A stretch of 64,000 nt of DNA from Simmondsia chinensis (Eukaryota > Streptophyta > Magnoliopsida > Caryophyllales > Simmondsiaceae), in NCBI GenBank assembly GCA_018398585.1, contig JAGTTD010000001.1:32377438-32441437 (forward strand). Reading direction: 5' to 3'. Below are positions 10,376 through 31,400 of the stretch, in pieces. Position 1 is the first letter of the stretch, and the number at the start of each line of letters is the position of its first letter. A program made the translations under genes and the position numbers. The notes below the pieces were generated by a model that was given only the letters and a program-made list of their open reading frames with translations, did no database searches and was not told the origin of the DNA.

Positions 10376-10911
10376 TGTTAGATATTTTAATCAAAAATAT
10401 ATATTAATACATTAATTTTTAATTTAAACATGATTTGATTTGATACATGATTTGACCGATTCTTTAGGGGTTAAAAATTGAGAATTAAGAATATATTTAA
10501 TGGGGTAACGGTACAATGGAGTTTTGCATTTTATAAGCCAGTAGTGTAAGCCTTGAAATTCACAAGGGAAAAGGAAAACTTAATTTGACAAAAATTCCTT
10601 TTTAAACCAATTGTACTTTGTTTTGAGTTTTGTCAGTTACTTCGGCTAAGTAAGGTGTTATAAGGTTTTGCCTTCGAGGTTGTGCAGACCAAGAAAGTGT
10701 TAACAGTGGTTGGGCGTCGTATCCTGGAGGCGGAGCGCCGGTACCTACTGCACCAGCTTTGATCCGAGACGGGTGCAAAACCGTCTTAAAGAGAGCGTGA
10801 CCCACGCCTCGCTCAACTGTGACTTTATTGGTGTTTCGTCATCTTTACGAGTCAATGGCAATATTTTTCTACTTCATTTTTTTTTAATATTTTTCGTTTT
10901 TAGTTCTACCA
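10376..10911 (+). repeat. copia-2 5' LTR
   Basis: Begins TGTTAGATATTTTAATC and ends TTCTACCA; pairs along its whole length with 16377-16921. The usual TGGTATCAGAGC primer site is not visible after it, so the sequence just inside has been deleted or changed. Confidence 0.9.
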
Positions 10912-11007
10912 ATTTAAAGACGGTTTCTGGCTCTCTATGGTAAATCTAGTCGGATCTCTACTAATGATTATAATCCTATGGAGTATTTCATAGCCATGAT
11001 AACATAA

Positions 11008-11335
11008 TTAAATACCATTGAAAATCATGACTGTTGGTGGGTAGACACAGGTCCCTCTAGGCATGTGTGTTATGATAAAAATTTGTTTAAGACCTATTGT
11101 GTTGTTGAGAGCGACCGTAAAATATTGCTAGGGGACTCTCAAACCGCAAATGTCTTAGGCATCGGTGACATAGAAATCAAATTTATCTCCAGGAAGATTA
11201 TAACTTTAAAAGATGTCCTTGATACTCCTGTGATTAGAAAGAATCTCGTTTCTGGTTATCTCTTGAATAAGGCAGGCTTTAAGTAGATTTTTGAATCTGA
11301 CCAAAATATTATTACTAAAAATGGTGTCTTTATCG
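11008..11335 (+). pseudogene. copia-2 protease, interrupted by an insertion
   Basis: After a stop at 11005-11007 the frame reads CWWVDTGPSRHVC (active-site DTG), then GDSQTANVLGIG and NLVSGYLLNKAGF, typical of copia proteases. A TAG at 11284-11286 interrupts it; the same frame continues to KNGVF and is cut at 11335 by the nested LTR element. Without the nested element and one copy of TATCG, the frame continues directly into the sequence at 13110. Confidence 0.85.
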
Positions 11336-11628
11336 TGTTACATGTAATTGTAGATCATTTAGGTAGTTGGTTTGTTAGTAGGGATAAAGAATTAGTAGTT
11401 AAGTTGGTTGAGTTGGTTAGGGACATTCTTGTGATGAGTTACAAAGTAACTCCTTAAATACATATGTAGATGGAGTCATTCAATAACAAGAATCAAATAC
11501 ATTTCTCATCTTCCTCTATTCTAATCTCTCATCTCCTTCTTCTAATTCTTTCTCTCACCTAACTCTCTTTCTCAATCTATCCTAACCCTAACCCTAAATC
11601 TTGGATACAATCTAATTGATTGTATCAA
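11336..11628 (+). repeat. 5' LTR of the RRM element
   Basis: Starts TGTTACATGTAATTG and ends GATTGTATCA. The second half (about 11495-11590) is a long C/T-rich strand with repeated TCTC, CTTC and TTCT words, followed by a short telomere-like CCTAACCCTAACCCTAAA near 11582-11599. Confidence 0.95.
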
Positions 11629-11630
11629 TT

Positions 11631-11642
11631 GGTATCAGAGCA
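11631..11642 (+). promoter_or_regulatory. Primer-binding site for initiator tRNA-Met
   Basis: TGGTATCAGAGC lies two bases after the LTR end. It is the standard plant LTR-retrotransposon primer site complementary to the 3' end of tRNA-iMet. Confidence 0.95.
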
Positions 11643-11667
11643 GGCAACGTACTGCGTATCGTGATCA

Positions 11668-12633
11668 ATGGACGAGGGCACGTGTAGCACCTCAGACATT
11701 CGACGCTTGGAGGCTCGGTTAGATGACACCGAGAACCGTCTTGAAGGTCGATTGAATGATCTTGATGAAAGATTGCAAGTAATGGTGACCGAGATGACTT
11801 CGATTAAGCAAGATCAAAGCAAAATGATGGAGATTCTGTGGAATTTGCAACGTCATCATCGACCTAGTGATGATGCTACCCTCTTGATCAAAGTCACGGA
11901 GGTTTTTTATACTGTAACTAAAGATGTTCTTCATCAGGTATTCTCTCGTTTTGGTCACATTGCAAAACTTGAAGTCATCTCATCATCAATTCTTGAGGTT
12001 AAAGCACGCATCGCATTTTCTTCAAGACAAAATGCGATTTCTGCATTTTTGTTCAATGGAAGAGCTATATATGACCATTGCTGTTACATGGATATTCAAT
12101 TTCTCAATCTTGAGCCTCAAGTATATAACATGACACAGCCTATTGGAGGGACACATGATGCATCATCTGATTGTCATAAGCACAATATAGTTAATGAAGT
12201 GAAATCAATTCATGTCAAGAGTGATTTCGGTATCAAAAGTGGCAGTAAAGTTACAACAACACAAGCTAAAGATAAAGTTTCAACCTCTTATGTTGACATT
12301 GTCGAGCCCAAACCTACACATGAAGTTGACGCATCTCCATCTACCGCTCAATTTAAAAAAGTTGAGGCATCTCCGTTGGTTATCACGAAATCAGTTGATT
12401 GTATGATTGATGGTAGAGCTCAAACCACGGACCATATTTCAAATCTTGAAGACAATGCAATTGTTGAAACACTTCTCACATTGGCATTTGGTGAAGACAT
12501 GAAGATATTTGGAGACAATAAACAGTACTATTTGGTTGAGGTTTCTTCGCGGTCCAATGAGATCAAGGAGTTCTTCAAGGGCAAGCGTAATTTTTCATAT
12601 GCAACAGAAGAAGCTATAACTTGGTACCATTGA
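11668..12633 (+). CDS. Element protein: coiled coil plus PTB-like RRM, 321 aa
   Basis: The ATG at 11668 lies 25 bp after the primer site and the frame is fully open to TGA at 12631-12633. Residues about 8-60 are heptad-rich (RRLEARLDDTENRLEGRL), a predicted coiled coil such as gag-like proteins use to assemble. Residues about 72-150 align by eye with the second RRM of plant PTB proteins: DVLHQVFSRFG, SRQNAISAFLFNGRAIYD, then CCYMDIQFLNL (PTBs have CCQLDIQFSNL). The usual PTB stretch KSAGFQALIQY is diverged here (SILEVKARIAF), so RNA-contact residues may differ. Residues 150-321 are Ser/Thr/Lys-rich and unrecognised. No zinc knuckle or catalytic domain. A role in packaging or binding the element's own RNA is inference; a captured domain without function is the alternative. 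Confidence 0.88.
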   Translation: MDEGTCSTSDIRRLEARLDDTENRLEGRLNDLDERLQVMVTEMTSIKQDQSKMMEILWNLQRHHRPSDDATLLIKVTEVFYTVTKDVLHQVFSRFGHIAKLEVISSSILEVKARIAFSSRQNAISAFLFNGRAIYDHCCYMDIQFLNLEPQVYNMTQPIGGTHDASSDCHKHNIVNEVKSIHVKSDFGIKSGSKVTTTQAKDKVSTSYVDIVEPKPTHEVDASPSTAQFKKVEASPLVITKSVDCMIDGRAQTTDHISNLEDNAIVETLLTLAFGEDMKIFGDNKQYYLVEVSSRSNEIKEFFKGKRNFSYATEEAITWYH

Positions 12634-12812
12634 TGCATCGTGCCACCTATTGTGTTGAGCAAAGTTCCGTGCTCGGTTTTGCTTTTGTTGTAACTGTTTT
12701 TATTTTTGATCCGGGGGGAACATATTCATCATTAGTTTGTATATCCTCCTCAAGTCATTTTTAAAAAAAAAAATCACCCTTGGGGACAAGGGTGCTGTAT
12801 TGGGGGAGGTAT
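12634..12812 (+). other. 3' non-coding region and polypurine tract of the RRM element
   Basis: Short untranslated stretch with an A run near 12762-12772, ending in TGGGGGAGGTA (12801-12811) directly before the 3' LTR, the expected plus-strand priming tract. Confidence 0.8.
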
Positions 12813-13104
12813 TGTTACATGTAATTGTAGATCATTTAGGTAGTTAGTTTGTTAGTAGGGGATAAAGAATTAGTAGTTAAATTGGTTGAGTTGGTTAGGG
12901 ACATTCTTGTGATGAGTTAAAAATAACTCTTTAAATACATATGTAGATGGAGTCACTCAATAACAAGAATCAAATACATTTCTTATTTTCCTCTATTCTA
13001 ATCTCTCATCTCCTTCTTCTAATTCTTTCTCTCACCTAACTCTCTTTCTCAATCTATCCTAACCCTAACCCTAAATCTTGGATACAATCTAATTGATTGT
13101 ATCA
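12813..13104 (+). repeat. 3' LTR of the RRM element
   Basis: Near-identical to 11336-11628, same TGTTACATG start and TTGTATCA end, including the pyrimidine-rich block and telomere-like motif. Confidence 0.95.
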
Positions 13105-13846
13105 TATCGGTCGAGGCTATACTTGTGATGATATGTTTAAACTCGATGTTAAAATCGGTAAAATTGCTCATATATCTGTTTATATTGTTTCATGTGTGAA
13201 TCTTTGGCATGCTAGACTTTGCCATGTGAATAGCAAGTATTTGAGTAATATGAGTTATCTATACTTACTACCCAAATTCGGAAATAACTTTGAAAAATGT
13301 GAAGTTTGTAGTATGACTAAAATTACTAAAGCGCCACATACGAAAGTAGAAAGAAATACCAAGTTGCTAGAATTAATCCACTCGGATATGTGTGAATTTG
13401 AAGGAGTATTAACGAGGGGTGGGAAAAGGTATTTTATAACCTTTATTGATGATTTTTCAAAATACTCTTGCGTATACCTTATGAAAAATAAAAGTAAAGC
13501 TTTTGAAAAATTAACAACTTTCATCAAAGAGGTAGAAAATCGTTTTGATAGAAAAATTAAAAGGTTTAGAACCGATAGAGGTAAAGAATATAGCATATGT
13601 GGCCTAATCGATTATATTCAATCTGTTGGTATAGTACATGAAGTCACCCATCCCTATTCTCCTCCCTCTAATGGTGTAGCGGAACGAAAAAATAGATCGT
13701 TAATTAACTTGACGAATGCCATGCTAGTTAGCTCCGGAGCCCCTAATAATCTATGGGAAGAGGCAATTCTCACTGCTAATTATATATTTAATAGAGTGCC
13801 TAGTAAGAAAATTTTAAAAAACACCCCACGAATTATGGAGGAATAG
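13105..13846 (+). pseudogene. copia-2 GAG-pre-integrase and integrase core
   Basis: Resumes the copia-2 frame after the nested element. LWHARLCHVNSKYL and CEVCSMTKITKAPH give the zinc-binding GAG-pre-integrase segment. The catalytic core shows HSDMCEF (first Asp), FRTDRGKEYS (second Asp) and NGVAERKNRS (Glu). The frame ends with TAG at 13844-13846, and the next segment continues in another frame. Confidence 0.88.
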
Positions 13847-14232
13847 AAAACCAAATTTGAGTTATCTAAGGGTATGGGGGTGTTTAGCATATGTGAGAAA
13901 AACTGATCCCAAAATTCTGAAGTTAGGAATAAGAGCAATAAGAAGTGTCTTTACAGGTTATACTTTGAATAGTAAAGCCTATAGATTTTTAGACCTTGAG
14001 AATAATATGGTAATAGAATCATTAGATGCAATATTTCATGAAGATAAATTTCCTTTTAAATCAAAAAATAGTGGGGGTAATAAAAATGATAAAAAGAATA
14101 ATTGATAATTATGCTAGTTCTTCCTAACCTAGAGAAGAGGCTAATCTTGAACCAATTAGAAGGAGAAAAAGACAAAGAATAGAAAAGGACTTTGGTTCTG
14201 ATTTTCTTTTATACCATATTCAAGATCCTTGT
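13847..14232 (+). pseudogene. copia-2 integrase C-terminal and linker region
   Basis: LRVWGCLAYVRKTDPK and FTGYTLNSKAYRFLD are the copia block after the integrase core. A Lys/Asn-rich linker follows with stops near 14105 and 14126, then RRRKRQRIEKDFGSDF, typical of the hinge before RT. Confidence 0.75.
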
Positions 14233-15365
14233 ATGTTTGTTGAGAACTTCATTTATGTGTTGGACAATGAACCTAAGTTAATTCATGAAGCTTTATCATC
14301 ATCGGACTCAGATTTTTGGAGAGAAGCAATAAATGATGAAATAGACTCTCTAATGACTAACAAAACATGGAAGCTAGCAGACTTACCTCCGGGATGCAAA
14401 GCCATAGGTTGCAAATAGGTATTTCATAGGAAACGTAAACCTGATGGTACCATAGACAAATTTAAAGCTAGATTGGTCGCTAAAGGTTTTAAACAAAAGG
14501 AAGATATAGATTTCTTGGATAACTATTCTCCAGTAACTAAAGTAACTTCCATAAAAATTTTGGTTGCTATAGCAGCTTTTCATAATTTATTGATCCATCA
14601 AATGCATGTAAAAACGACATTTTTAAATGGAGACTTAGAAGAAGAAATATATATGGATCAACCGGAAGGGTTTGTCCAACCACGGAATCAACATAAAGTT
14701 TGTAAATTAACAAAATCATTATATAGTCTCAAACAAGCCCCAAAACAATGGCATGAAAATTTTGATCTATGTTTAATTTCTAATGGATTTAAGTTGAATG
14801 AAACTGACAAGTGCATATACTATAAATCTGTTAATGATGTTCATGTCATTATCTGTCTATATGTAGATGATTTGTTAATTTTGGAACCAATCTAAGCATT
14901 ATCAATTCAACAAAGACTTTATTAAAGAGTGTCTTTGATATGAATGACATGGGTGAAGCAAATGTTATATTAGGGATAAAAATTACTAGAACTAATGATG
15001 GCATTTTTCGTGATCAATCCCACTATGTTGAAAAGATATTAAAGAAATTCAATATGTTTGATTGCTTTCCCGTTAGTACATCGTTAGACCCACATGTTTA
15101 TCTCTATCCGAATGATAATGATGCTGATATTATTAATCAAAGCGAGTATTCTAATGTAATTGGTAGTCTAAGATATGCTGCTGACACTACTAGACCTGAT
15201 ATTGCTTATGCCGTTGGTGCACTTAGTCGATTTACTAGTAGGCCTACGTTTGATCATTTGACTACTTTGAATCGTGTTATGAGATACTTCAAAAGAACTA
15301 TAAGTTACGGTTTATATTATAAAAATCACCCTGCTGTTCTTGAAGGTTTTAGTGATGCAAATTAG
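14233..15365 (+). pseudogene. copia-2 reverse transcriptase
   Basis: RVT_2 domain in pieces: FWREAINDEIDSLMTNKTW, a TAG near 14416, FKARLVAKGFKQKEDIDF, an altered QMHVKTTFLNGDL motif, SLYSLKQAPKQWHE and an intact YVDDLLIL catalytic box near 14860-14885. A frameshift immediately after the YVDD box (about 14880) and a stop separate it from NDMGEANVILGIK, TRPDIAYAVGALSRF and the thumb. The Asp of the usual QMDV motif is His here (QMHV), so even the palm is damaged. Confidence 0.88.
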
Positions 15366-15830
15366 AATTCTCATTCTGGTGATGCTGTTTCTACAAGTGG
15401 TTACTTGTTTACACTTGGTGGTGGAGCAATGAGTTGGAAATAAAAAAAACAAACAATTATTGCTAAATCAACCATGGAGGCTAAGCTTGTAGCTCTAGCC
15501 ACTGCTAGTGAGGAGGCATCGTGGTTAAGAGAACTATTATTTGACATTCCTATGTGGGACAGACTAGTACCACCTGTTCTCATACATTGTGATAGTACTG
15601 CAGCTGTTGGTAGGGTGCATAATAAATACTGTAATGGAAAATCCAGATCTATAAGAAGGACGCATAGTATAGTGAGGTCACACCTCTTGAATGGCGCCAT
15701 AAATCTTGATCATGTGAGAAGTGATGATAATATTGCGGATCCGCTAACAAAACCTCTAGCCAAGGGTAAGATCTGGGTTACATCAAGGGGAATGGGACTT
15801 AAGCCCGAAGAAGAAATTGTTCACCCATGA
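15366..15830 (+). pseudogene. copia-2 RNase H
   Basis: Starts in the GFSDAN context with a stop (15363-15365). It continues STSGYLFTLGGGAMSWK, a second stop, TIIAKSTMEAKLVALATA, then IHCDSTAAVGRVHNK and VRSDDNIADPLTKPL. RNase H would remove template RNA during reverse transcription. The order matches copia elements; two nonsense changes disable it. Confidence 0.85.
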
Positions 15831-16364
15831 GGATACCCTAAAAAGGGACAAACGAAACATGGAGTGATCGGGGGTTAGCATACGTTTTACTCTATTTTAG
15901 TCCATCCCTATGGTGCGGCATGCTTACTTGTGGCGATGTTGAGGTTGAGCTAGTTATGCTCTTAATGAGATCTATAGCCCCTATGTTGGGGTGGGGTGTA
16001 TGGCCACGAGTACACTCCTGATAGACCCACCTATATGAGTGTGGAAATAGGGCCGCTCCCTATGAGAGCTCGGGCTGACTCTCTAGAGCGCTCATGAAAC
16101 CAGGATGAAGCACATGGCCGTAATGTGCAAGCTTTAGAGAGCCTATGGGGCACTGAGGATACCATGTGTGTGAAGCACTCTACATGCCCTCAAGCAACTA
16201 AGATTTAAAAGCTAAGGCCACCGTAGTTCTAGTATGGGAGTCGCTGAAACACTAAGTGAGAGTTTAAAGGCATTGTCACTCTCATTATGCATGGGGTCCT
16301 CACTTAGCCAAAGGTTTCTTTAAAAAAAAAATTTAAAATTTAACTCTTATATTTTTCATTAAAA
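15831..16364 (+). other. copia-2 3' non-coding region
   Basis: Long untranslated stretch between RNase H and the purine tract, more GC-rich than its surroundings, with no coding frame of note. Confidence 0.6.
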
Positions 16365-16921
16365 TAAGTGGGGGAATGTTGGATATTTAATTAAAAATAT
16401 ATATTAATACATTATTTTTTAATTTAAACATGATTTGATTTTGATACATGATTTGACCGATTCTTTGGGGGTTACAAATTGAGAATTAAGAATATGTTTA
16501 ATGGCGCAACAGTACAATGGCTGGAGTTTTGCTTTTTATAAGCCAATAGTGTAAGCTTTGAAATTCACAAGGGAAAAGGAAAACTTAATTTGACGAAAAT
16601 TCCTTCTTAAATCAAACGTACTTTGTTTTGAGTTTTGCCAATTACTTCGGCTAAGTAAGGTGTTGTAAGGTTTGGCTTTCGAGGTTGTGCAGACCAAGAA
16701 AGTGTCAACAGTGGTTGGGTGTTGTATCCTGGAAGTAGCGCCCCGGTACCTGCTGCACCGGCTTAGATCCGAGAGGGGCGCGAAACCGTCTTAAAGAGAG
16801 CGTGATTCGCGCCTCGCTCAACTGTGACTTTATTGGTATTTCGTCATCTCTACGAGTCATTGGTAATATCATTCTACTTCATTTTTTTTTTGTATAATAT
16901 TTTTCGTATTTAGTTCCAACA
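16365..16921 (+). repeat. copia-2 polypurine tract and 3' LTR
   Basis: AAGTGGGGGAA immediately precedes the LTR, which starts TGTTGGATATTTAATT at 16377 and ends TTAGTTCCAACA at 16921. It matches 10376-10911 with scattered substitutions and small indels, so the element is old. Confidence 0.9.
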
Positions 16922-17247
16922 ATTATATAAAAAAAAAATATGAAGTACAAAATTGCATGAAAAACTTAACAAACTTACAATAGACTTTAAGGAAACCAAT
17001 TAAAAAAAATAATTTAAATATTTATAAATATACTAAATATTTTTAAAAAAAATATCTAAAGATACTTTAAAGGGTTATTTATAGTAGAGGTTTTTGAAAT
17101 TTTTTATTTTTTTTGGGTGTCAATTTCGTTTTTACACTTCTAATTGTGCCAATTTAGTTTTTCTGTAATTTATATTGTGTCAATTTGGTCCTTTGGTCAA
17201 ATTTAGACTAAGTTATTGATATAACTTGTAACAACACAATCACATTT
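16922..17247. repeat. Left arm of a large inverted-repeat element
   Basis: About 17040-17247 (TGTCAATTT and TGTGTCAATTTGGTCCTT blocks) is the inverted complement of 29700-29880, with weaker pairing outside. The interior of this large element carries the hAT and copia-3 insertions. Copia-2 lies directly to its left. Confidence 0.6.
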
Positions 17248-17686: not shown

Positions 17687-18121
17687 TCAGCCGCCTAGGG
17701 GGGTTTCTACGCCATCATTTGACGTATCAGTTGTGCGGTCGTCTTCTTCATTGCTCAATGAATCCAGTTTCATTCTCTGTTGATCTCTTGCCTCTGCTAG
17801 CAGCCAATCCTTCAAGCACAAGGACATCTCCAAGCTTGACGGCGATAGCTTGGCCCTCTTCATTCCAAGCAACCTGCCACCAAAACTGAAAGCACACTCC
17901 AATGCTATTGAAGACACTGGACAACTTAGTATATCACATGCCATGGTGGAAAGCACGGGATACTGGGTTTGGTTTGTGTTCCACCATTGTAAAAGGTCAA
18001 AATGCGGGTTGGCCGGTAGCCCGAAAATATGGACCAACGGTGTCCGCAAATAATAATCTAGCTCGTCACATGACGTGGGGGCTACTGTGGGCGTAAATTG
18101 CTCCAACAGCTTCCATGAATA
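17687..18121 (-). pseudogene. hAT transposase C-terminal part (hATC dimerisation domain)
   Basis: Carries the hATC signature: ELDYYLRTPLV, then FDLLQWWNTNQTQYPVLSTM, then PVSSIALECAFSFGGRLL, and an acidic C-terminal tail ending in a stop at 17687. In hAT transposases this domain mediates dimerisation and completes the catalytic fold. It is separated from the rest of the protein by the LTR element at 18122-23693. That insert plus its target duplication is 5577 bp, a multiple of three, so the frame is the same on both sides. Confidence 0.92.
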
Positions 18122-23698: not shown

Positions 23699-25486
23699 TG
23701 ACGTGTGTGAACTACTTCTACTAGATGTGGAAGATCCTACTGAAGCAGTACTAGGATATTGATTATTGGACGCTAATTTCCGGGAATATTGAGAAAATAA
23801 ACTATGCAAGTCGTTATCGACATCGGCAATGAAAGTGTCGATATTAAGACTAGGATGCAAATATTTGAAAAAATATTGGCAAAACAAGTTTAAACCCCCA
23901 CATTTACAACGAGGATCTAAAATAGTTGCCAAGCAGTATGTAAGAGGCAGTTCAGAATAATATTTGGCAAACTTTTCTTTCATTGCCTTAATCGATTCGA
24001 ACAAAATGGGGTTGGATTCATTACCCACCATCCAATTGACAATATCAAGCAATCTTGATATTGCTTGAGGTATGGTCAGATAGTAGCAACCGAAAAAAAT
24101 GTCGTTGCCTCTTTAAACATGCTAAAAATTTTACAAATGATCTATTGTCTCCCAATTTATACCGGCCAGGTTATAATCGCTCCATTCTGTACGATTTTCT
24201 TGGGCGAATTCCATCAGAACGTCTTTGTATGGTAGAATGCGCTCTAACATTTCTACCGTAGACGACCACCTAGTTTGGGAGTCTAATTTGAATTGTTTAT
24301 ATTCTATGTTATGCAATCTACATAAATTTCTAAATCTTCTTTTTCTAGTGCCGGATGATTTAATAGATATTATTACGGATCTTAAGGTGGTAAGGGATAC
24401 TTTTATAAGATCTAAACCATCCATTACCATTAAATGCAAAAAGTGACAAATGCAACGAATATGGAAACACTTCCCACCTAACATGGGTCTCATTTGCCTA
24501 ATTAAATGTGTAACGGATGCAGTGTTATTGGTAGCATTGTCGAACGTAATATTGAAGATACGTCACTCTATGCCCCAGTCACGGATTGCCGTCATAATCG
24601 CACCCGTAATTATCTCGGCAGTGTGGGGGCAATCTAAAAGTCCAAAATGAATTATCCTCTTTTGGAGGATGAAGGATTCATCGGTCCAGTGTGCCGTTAT
24701 GCATATATAAGGTTGGCCGGGTTTCGAAGTCCATACGTCCGATGTCAACGAGAACATGCTCGTGTTCGTCGTAAAAAGTGTTAAGACCCCAGCTTTCATC
24801 CCATGGTACAACGTAAAAGCGTCCCGCTTTACGGTGTTCCGAGGAATCCTCACAATAGCGGGGTTCACATTTCGTTGGAGGTAGTTGACGAAATTTGGGT
24901 CTTCACCGGTATTAAAAGGCCTTTCACTCAAAATTATATGTTTAGCTAGACCCTTTCGGTTGCTCTCTTGAGAGAACCTAAAATTAGCAAGTGCATGGGT
25001 CACTTGCTGTATTAGACGTTGTTGGCTCTTATCTGGGTATTGCTCGGGGTGGCACCTAAGTATATGTCTGTTTAATGTGCTCGTCCCACTGCCAGGTTGA
25101 TGGCTAAAATCCCTAGCTGGGTCAAATAATTTACAAGTTGCTTTATTAGTTGTCTTATTAAGGGTAAAGTGCTTCCATACCCCACTAGTTGTACGCCTAC
25201 TAGCACCGGTACTAGTTTCAGGCTGGGCTTCGGTGGTGGGCGTGGGTTCCTCATCAGTTTGTGAGTCTCCCACCCCACCACCACCTAACTCATGATAATC
25301 TTGTTGTTGTGAAAAGTCATAATCTATGCTATCATCAGTGTATGGAGGTGATGGATCTGGTTGTATAAAAGCTCGTTCTTCAGTATTAAATAAGACAATT
25401 CTACTCCTTTTAGGGATTCTGGGTGGCCAAGAAGGGCTAGAACTAGCACGACCGGGTCCAGAGGATGATGAAGAGTTGTGTTACAT
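23699..25486 (-). pseudogene. hAT transposase N-terminal and central part
   Basis: One reading frame from a likely ATG at 25484-25486 runs down to the LTR insertion, and with 17687-18121 would make about 740 codons. Stops: codon 2 (TAA, probably from CAA), TGA at 24563-24565 (context GIE*RIF, probably from CGA), and three stops close together near 24120-24132. After a Ser/Pro-rich N-terminus comes a BED-type zinc finger: GVWKHFTL, TCKLF, GTSTLNRHILRCHP. The second Cys of the finger is Phe here, so zinc binding is probably lost. Then come catalytic-core blocks: SLTSDVWTS, IRDWGIE, ITFDNATNNTAS, CICHFLHLMV and TRWSSTVEML. The family matches plant RICESLEEPER/DAYSLEEPER-type hAT proteins. Confidence 0.9.
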
Positions 25487-31107: not shown

Positions 31108-31400
31108 TGTTAGAGTATAAAACTATTCCTGGGTCTTCACCCATCAGCTTAAGCTTTTGGGTAAGATGGTTCTTTGACATGGTATCAGAGCCTTGTTGAC
31201 TAAGAGGTCACGAGTTCGAATCTCAGCACTCCCCATTTTCAATATTAAAAATATTTAAGCACAAGGTATGAGATGGGCCTGTGCACTATCCACGCTTCAA
31301 GCGCAATTGGCATTCGCGTGAGGGGGTATGTTAGAGTATAAAACTATTCCTGAGCCTTCACCCATCAGCTTAAGCTTTTGGGTAAGATGGTTCTTTGACA
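31108..31400 (+). mobile_element. TRIM element, complete
   Basis: Terminal-repeat retrotransposon in miniature, 293 bp. LTRs of 72 bp at 31108-31179 and 31329-31400 differ at two positions. TGGTATCAGAGC (31180-31191) follows the left LTR and GTGAGGGGGTA precedes the right. Perfect AAATA target duplications lie at 31103-31107 and 31401-31405. The 149-bp interior includes GAGTTCGAATCTC, a B-box-like word, and codes nothing. Confidence 0.95.

Follow-up and report, generated by a model that had tools for sequence, protein, structure and literature searches.

A family of small LTR elements in Simmondsia chinensis encodes a PTB-type RRM that is likely preserved by selection

The window analyzed here is a stretch of 64,000 nucleotides from contig JAGTTD010000001.1 of the Simmondsia chinensis genome. 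It contains an intact LTR element of 1,769 bp (11336-13104), which is inserted into a decayed copia element. The features identified in and around it are listed in window coordinates:

11331..11335, no strand: target site duplication TATCG, 5' copy; direct reading, copia frame open across the empty site
11336..11627, plus: 5' LTR of 292 bp, TG...CA; repeat comparison
11502..11583, plus: CU-rich tract of the 5' LTR; score 43, not reached in any of 1,000 element shuffles, similar tract in other LTRs of the family
11630..11641, plus: primer-binding site, exact TGGTATCAGAGC with no mismatch; presumably of the initiator tRNA-Met type
11668..12633, plus: sole open frame, 321 codons; ORF list and shuffles
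11689..11853, plus: predicted coiled coil, residues 8-62; heptad pattern, helix in model
11869..12105, plus: RRM, residues 68-146, homologous to PTB RRM2; RRM_8 59.1 bits, PTBP1 RRM2 E 2.4e-8
12328..12333 (element 993-998), plus: likely recombination point of two subfamilies; relatives switch between 993 and 998
12802..12809, plus: polypurine tract GGGGGAGG; direct reading, three bases 5' of the 3' LTR
12813..13104, plus: 3' LTR of 292 bp with a second CU-rich tract at 12979-13060; repeat comparison
13105..13109, no strand: target site duplication TATCG, 3' copy; direct reading

The initial annotation had described a complete small LTR element, and the paired LTRs, target duplication, primer site and purine tract by which an LTR retrotransposon is recognized are all present, together with the frame. 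Two details of it need correction: both LTRs have 292 bp (293 and 292 bp had been given), and the frame begins 26 and not 25 bases past the primer site. The purine tract is found before the 3' LTR as proposed, and the primer site matches TGGTATCAGAGC exactly, for which we take initiator tRNA-Met to be the primer. The perfect 5-bp duplication holds as well; excision of the element and one TATCG leaves a single open copia frame spanning the site. The host copia element (10376-16924) has broken frames and LTR-like repeats (10376-10914 and 16377-16924) that are 89% identical. Elsewhere in the window, 17687-18106 and 24563-25273 (minus) contain what we take to be hAT transposase-like pieces (C-terminal region; BED-type zinc-finger start).

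The two LTRs differ by 7 transitions and 2 gap runs. Plant substitution rates used for LTR dating are 1.3e-8 and 7e-9, by which the LTR divergence of 0.025 corresponds to about 0.95-1.8 million years. Within the internal region of 1,185 bp, the RRM frame is the only one longer than 80 codons. In 2,000 dinucleotide shuffles of this region, no ATG frame exceeded 188 codons, compared with the 321 observed. Protease, reverse transcriptase and integrase are not encoded between the LTRs, where only the RRM frame was found and only RRM families of Pfam were over the cut-off.

Residues 68-146 match the Pfam family RRM_8 with 59.1 bits (cut-off 26.2). The best relative of solved structure is RRM2 of human PTBP1 (E 2.4e-8; 29 of 78 aligned residues identical), followed by hnRNP L (2.6e-5). 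The PTB-type RRM predicted from the first reading is thus confirmed, with a profile score far above the threshold; it corresponds to RRM2 of a PTB3-like gene and is fused to a coiled coil. PTBP1 has four RRMs, whereas the element protein has one and is in this respect not a member of the PTB protein family with its several RRMs; no second such RRM was found elsewhere within the window. From the proposed coiled-coil, gag-like N-terminus only the coiled coil was retained. Its heptad pattern in residues 8-62 was reached by 1 of 5,000 shuffles, and a model of the whole protein shows a helix over 8-62, but with a pLDDT of 67-91 only over about residues 1-40. The gag-like character was rejected, as a Pfam scan of 14 family proteins detected no gag family; RRM_8 was over the cut-off in all 14, and the only other model over the cut-off, in some of them, was RRM_1. 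The single-sequence model of the whole protein has a mean pLDDT of 40.6 and an RRM-like order of strands and helices at 72-137, yet below 50. For the RRM alone the single-sequence model is all-helical (mean pLDDT 57.5), which contradicts an RRM; we regard it as a failed prediction and give neither model any weight.

For identification of related elements, the element's own genome (831 Mb, 35 contigs) was searched. At least 67 DNA matches (40 of 1,098 candidates scored) and at least 135 protein matches with 38-100% identity (124 of 2,671 candidates scored) were found, and a search with RRM_8 gave 150 of 150 scored loci over the cut-off out of 2,202 candidates, these candidate numbers not being counts of elements. 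The element is therefore one of a large family. A first set of 42 loci was taken from the DNA and protein matches, leaving out eight that repeat already covered places. In 38 of them an LTR-like repeat pair spans 1.57-2.08 kb, in some cases partially, and 14 of these 38 pairs have TG...CA and an exact 5-bp duplication. Frames of at least 300 aa occur in 21 of the 42 loci, a share that is biased because 12 of the 42 (L039-L050) were chosen mostly for their open frames. A second set of 30 loci was taken from the RRM_8 search. Here a repeat pair brackets the RRM in 27 loci (a few pairs are short or weak), with a primer-like site at the end in 20 and an exact duplication in 13 of the 27 pairs; in these frames the RRM lies close to the N-terminus and the N-terminal coil is missing. 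The RRMs of the family score 49-88 bits against the cut-off of 26. Not all copies are broken: three of the seven that match across nearly the whole protein are stop-free inside, including the copy in the window. At the thresholds used, no homologues were found in public protein and contig collections, which are mostly prokaryotic or viral and have little bearing on plants.

Several loci show further peculiarities. A number of the otherwise different frames of L053, L057, L059-L061, L063-L068, L076, L077 and L081 share a C-terminal motif like RVWERFPRTGIG or RVRESFPRIGIG (e.g., L053, L059 and L076), which belongs to no Pfam family. Five RRM_8 matches of equal score, spaced by about 1,712 bases, follow each other at G000:C8:11639580-11646668 and probably represent one such LTR element repeated in tandem. 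On the reverse complement of L045, at about 1459-2859, the frame of an RRM element passes without a frame change into a reverse transcriptase recognized by eye as Ty3/gypsy; this gypsy element extends into L051, where no matching 3' LTR directly follows. L045 was rejected as an autonomous RRM-plus-pol element, as no LTR matching its 5' LTR directly follows pol, and the piece that resembles this 5' LTR has only 122 bp and lies farther on past pol. We read L045 as a rearranged locus, and with this candidate set aside no autonomous helper element was found.

A search with a segment of Arabidopsis PTB3 revealed one strong host PTB3 gene at 28.54 Mb of G000:C4 (72-83% identity in three pieces) and two other weak matches elsewhere in the genome. 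In the stretch read, the RRM2 of this gene is split by three putative introns, whose boundaries, as placed by alignment, follow SAG, QLH and QYS. The element frame is uninterrupted at all three places; like in Bs1, a host gene sequence without introns (here with PTB RRM2 homology) is located between LTRs. Of 72 loci, 56 gave an element RRM free of stops; these RRMs and the host PTB3 were placed in a tree rooted on human PTBP1. All 56 element RRMs fall into one clade (local support 0.92) beside the host PTB3, which is their sister by construction, given the sampling of a single plant PTB and the short alignment. Group A is 46% identical to the host PTB3, and the groups of the family range over 46-56%. 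The single clade and the three introns missing from the element frame fit one capture from spliced RNA, and one old capture of the RRM from the host PTB3 transcript is thus likely. The initial annotation had suggested that the element itself captured a part of a PTB gene. Its PTB-type origin holds, while the capture likely happened once, long before this element, and is common to the large family. A lone recent capture was rejected, the RRM domain being family-wide by protein matches, scored loci and clade alike.

In addition, we analyzed whether the protein is under selection. Along rising dS, the median pairwise dN/dS of the RRM falls from 1.03 over 0.58, 0.38, 0.47, 0.44, 0.40 and 0.33 to 0.24 (1,501 pairs with usable dS of 1,540 possible; the pairs are non-independent). 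Seven non-overlapping pairs gave a pooled dN/dS of 0.40 (p 2.2e-10), with single pairs at 0.23-0.90. Medians for groups A, B and C rest on 5, 7 and 9 open frames, respectively. For the RRM they are 0.42 (A-B), 0.44 (A-C) and 0.39 (B-C) between groups and 0.98 (A), 0.30 (B) and 0.86 (C) within them, so that dN/dS is about 1 within the element's own subfamily and constraint is visible between subfamilies. The coil gave 0.30 (A-B), 0.34 (A-C), 0.70 (B-C) and 0.91 within C, the linker 0.83-1.00 between and 0.61-1.10 within groups, and the C-terminal part 0.62-0.82 between groups. The values of the coil for B-C and within C, and that of the RRM within C, speak against selection. The dependence on divergence suggests that inserted copies drift, while the lineages founding new copies would retain the RRM and, as some of the values indicate, also the coil. 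Judged from these substitution patterns, the RRM was likely preserved by purifying selection as the elements multiplied. The open frame had earlier been taken as a hint of selection; selection on the protein is borne out, but one open frame is weak evidence for it.

The modules of the protein differ in age. Between A and B the synonymous distance is 0.12 for the RRM and 0.99 for the coil, and between B and C it is 0.26 for the coil and 0.65 for the RRM. In the DNA comparison, the relatives include one set whose match to the element ends at position 993 and another whose match begins at 998. An exchange of modules between subfamilies would explain both the discordant distances and this switch. 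It could have proceeded by co-packaging of RNAs of different family members with template switching.

A CU-rich tract was found in all 38 LTRs of groups A-C (score 26-82, median 43); its distance to the primer site or aligned LTR end is 0-63 bases. In the second set, 22 of 27 LTRs reach a CU score of at least 26 (lowest 5). The tract is present at 43 of 49 primer-site matches adjoining an RRM frame, compared with 3.2% of 1,939 random stretches. It also occurs at 5 of 11 other primer-site matches. These serve poorly as a control: of the five with a tract, four lie within loci fetched for RRM elements, and the fifth (L079) lies inside the 3' LTR of that element itself. For comparison, the scores are 14-27 for four further LTR pairs in the window, 54 for the gypsy LTR in L051 and 66 for the 800 bases upstream of a primer-like site at 31180 of the window. 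The CU tract is a feature of the family, but its occurrence at these other sites speaks against specificity and counts against the RNA role.

PTBP1 is described to bind UCUU and CUCUCU, with the register CU(N)N for RRM2 (PMC10342978). The RNA contacts of RRM2 are altered in the elements. Residues equivalent to F216 and K218 of PTBP1 are retained in no element RRM in either of two alignments (21 and 56 RRMs), and that of L225 in 1 of 21 and 9 of 56; the gap placement in the F216/K218 loop is ambiguous, so I214 is not comparable. This argues against a simple carry-over of PTB RNA binding. Unlike a nucleocapsid, the protein is acidic (-10), with a neutral RRM region, which counts against a role as RNA companion.

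On balance we favor the following explanation. The element belongs to a family of small LTR elements without reverse transcriptase, whose RRM likely goes back to a one-time capture of spliced PTB3, is likely under selection and is predicted to act in an oligomeric companion of the element's own RNA. We are highly confident of the parts on identity, family and selection, whereas the RNA role is held tentatively. Transcription would be driven by the LTR and copying primed by initiator tRNA-Met, with reverse transcriptase and integrase coming from a separate autonomous element. The protein would oligomerize via its coiled coil, and the RRM would hold the element RNA; its most likely contact is the CU-rich leader next to the primer site. 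This would favor packaging or copying of the family RNAs, and the exchanged modules would follow in this model from their co-packaging. A further-reaching version, which we consider possible but doubtful, is that after a single capture the PTB RRM turned into the central gene of a whole radiation of LTR elements without reverse transcriptase. It would recognize CU-rich leaders, let these elements out-compete other RNAs in borrowed particles and be shuffled as a module, as an independent LTR counterpart of LINE ORF1.

A protein that serves the element, predicted as companion of its RNA, thus remains the most likely reading, and its chief rival is a protein adaptor, which we regard as rather unlikely. 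Here the RRM would no longer bind RNA; its helical (dorsal) face, which binds Raver1 in PTBP1, would hold a host factor or the gag of a helper, and the coiled coil would cluster such contacts, so that the element RNA enters the particles of the helper. Tyr247 of PTBP1 is reported to be required for binding of Raver1 and not of RNA (PMC3420021). Among the element RRMs, 18 of 21 and 52 of 56 have Tyr at the equivalent position, and Cys250 and Cys251 are retained in 54 of 56 each. Together with the changed RNA face, the neutral RRM and the acidic protein this agrees with an adaptor, but retention of the three residues may serve the fold alone, and the CU-rich leader is left without explanation. 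It is improbable that the protein is directed at the host, where it would compete with host PTB or hamper silencing and in this way increase the expression of the elements without contact to their RNA. The descent from PTB and the selection on the RRM would suit this, but the benefit goes to all elements in the cell, which is harder to select, and the PTB RNA contacts are changed. Least probable of all is an inert captured fragment with a low dN/dS produced by ascertainment through protein similarity and by non-independent pairs, since the dN/dS of about 1 within subfamily A, the stops in many copies and the finding of most copies by protein or profile are outweighed by the 0.40 (p 2.2e-10) of the non-overlapping pairs, the linker near 1 in the same copies and RRM scores (49-88 bits) far above the detection limit of 26.

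The predicted RNA companion can be compared with several known systems. Bs1 of maize and exon-capturing TRIMs are likewise small LTR elements with intron-less pieces of host genes, and Bs1 also has a chimeric frame. Their reported captures each involve parts of one gene within one element or family, whereas here the RRM is common to a large and diverse family and likely under purifying selection across deep divergence. TRIMs are defined by a very short, non-coding internal region, which does not apply to an internal region of 1,185 bp with a frame of 321 codons. TR-GAG elements are, like those described here, non-autonomous LTR elements with one protein frame. They are defined by a gag domain, and no gag family was detected in the 14 scanned proteins. 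Human L1ORF1p, an RNA companion that binds the RNA of its own element and is required for mobility, has the same order of coiled coil, RRM and C-terminal part as groups A-C, and the plant BNR LINE resembles the element protein by a reported RRM in ORF1; a comparable way of working is predicted for the element protein. In contrast to LINEs, the element has LTRs, a primer site and a target duplication, lacks an ORF2-type reverse transcriptase frame and carries an RRM of the PTB type; the frames of the L053 to L081 type differ from LINE ORF1 also by the lack of an N-terminal coil. Compared with plant PTB3, with which it shares the RRM2 homology, the protein has one RRM, an added coiled coil and changed RNA-contact residues. 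An RRM or PTB in LTR elements is named in no title or abstract opening listed by searches of open-licence papers for this combination, and an earlier description elsewhere is possible.

Annotation by similarity to RRM or PTB can miscount such transposon frames as host RNA-binding genes. The family also bears on how LTR elements without polymerase persist and compete for the machinery of another element: it is long-lived, and its one protein, host-derived and apparently under selection, offers a candidate for a gene that aids a parasite of retrotransposons. The captured host domain is here a lasting gene of the element rather than a passing fragment.
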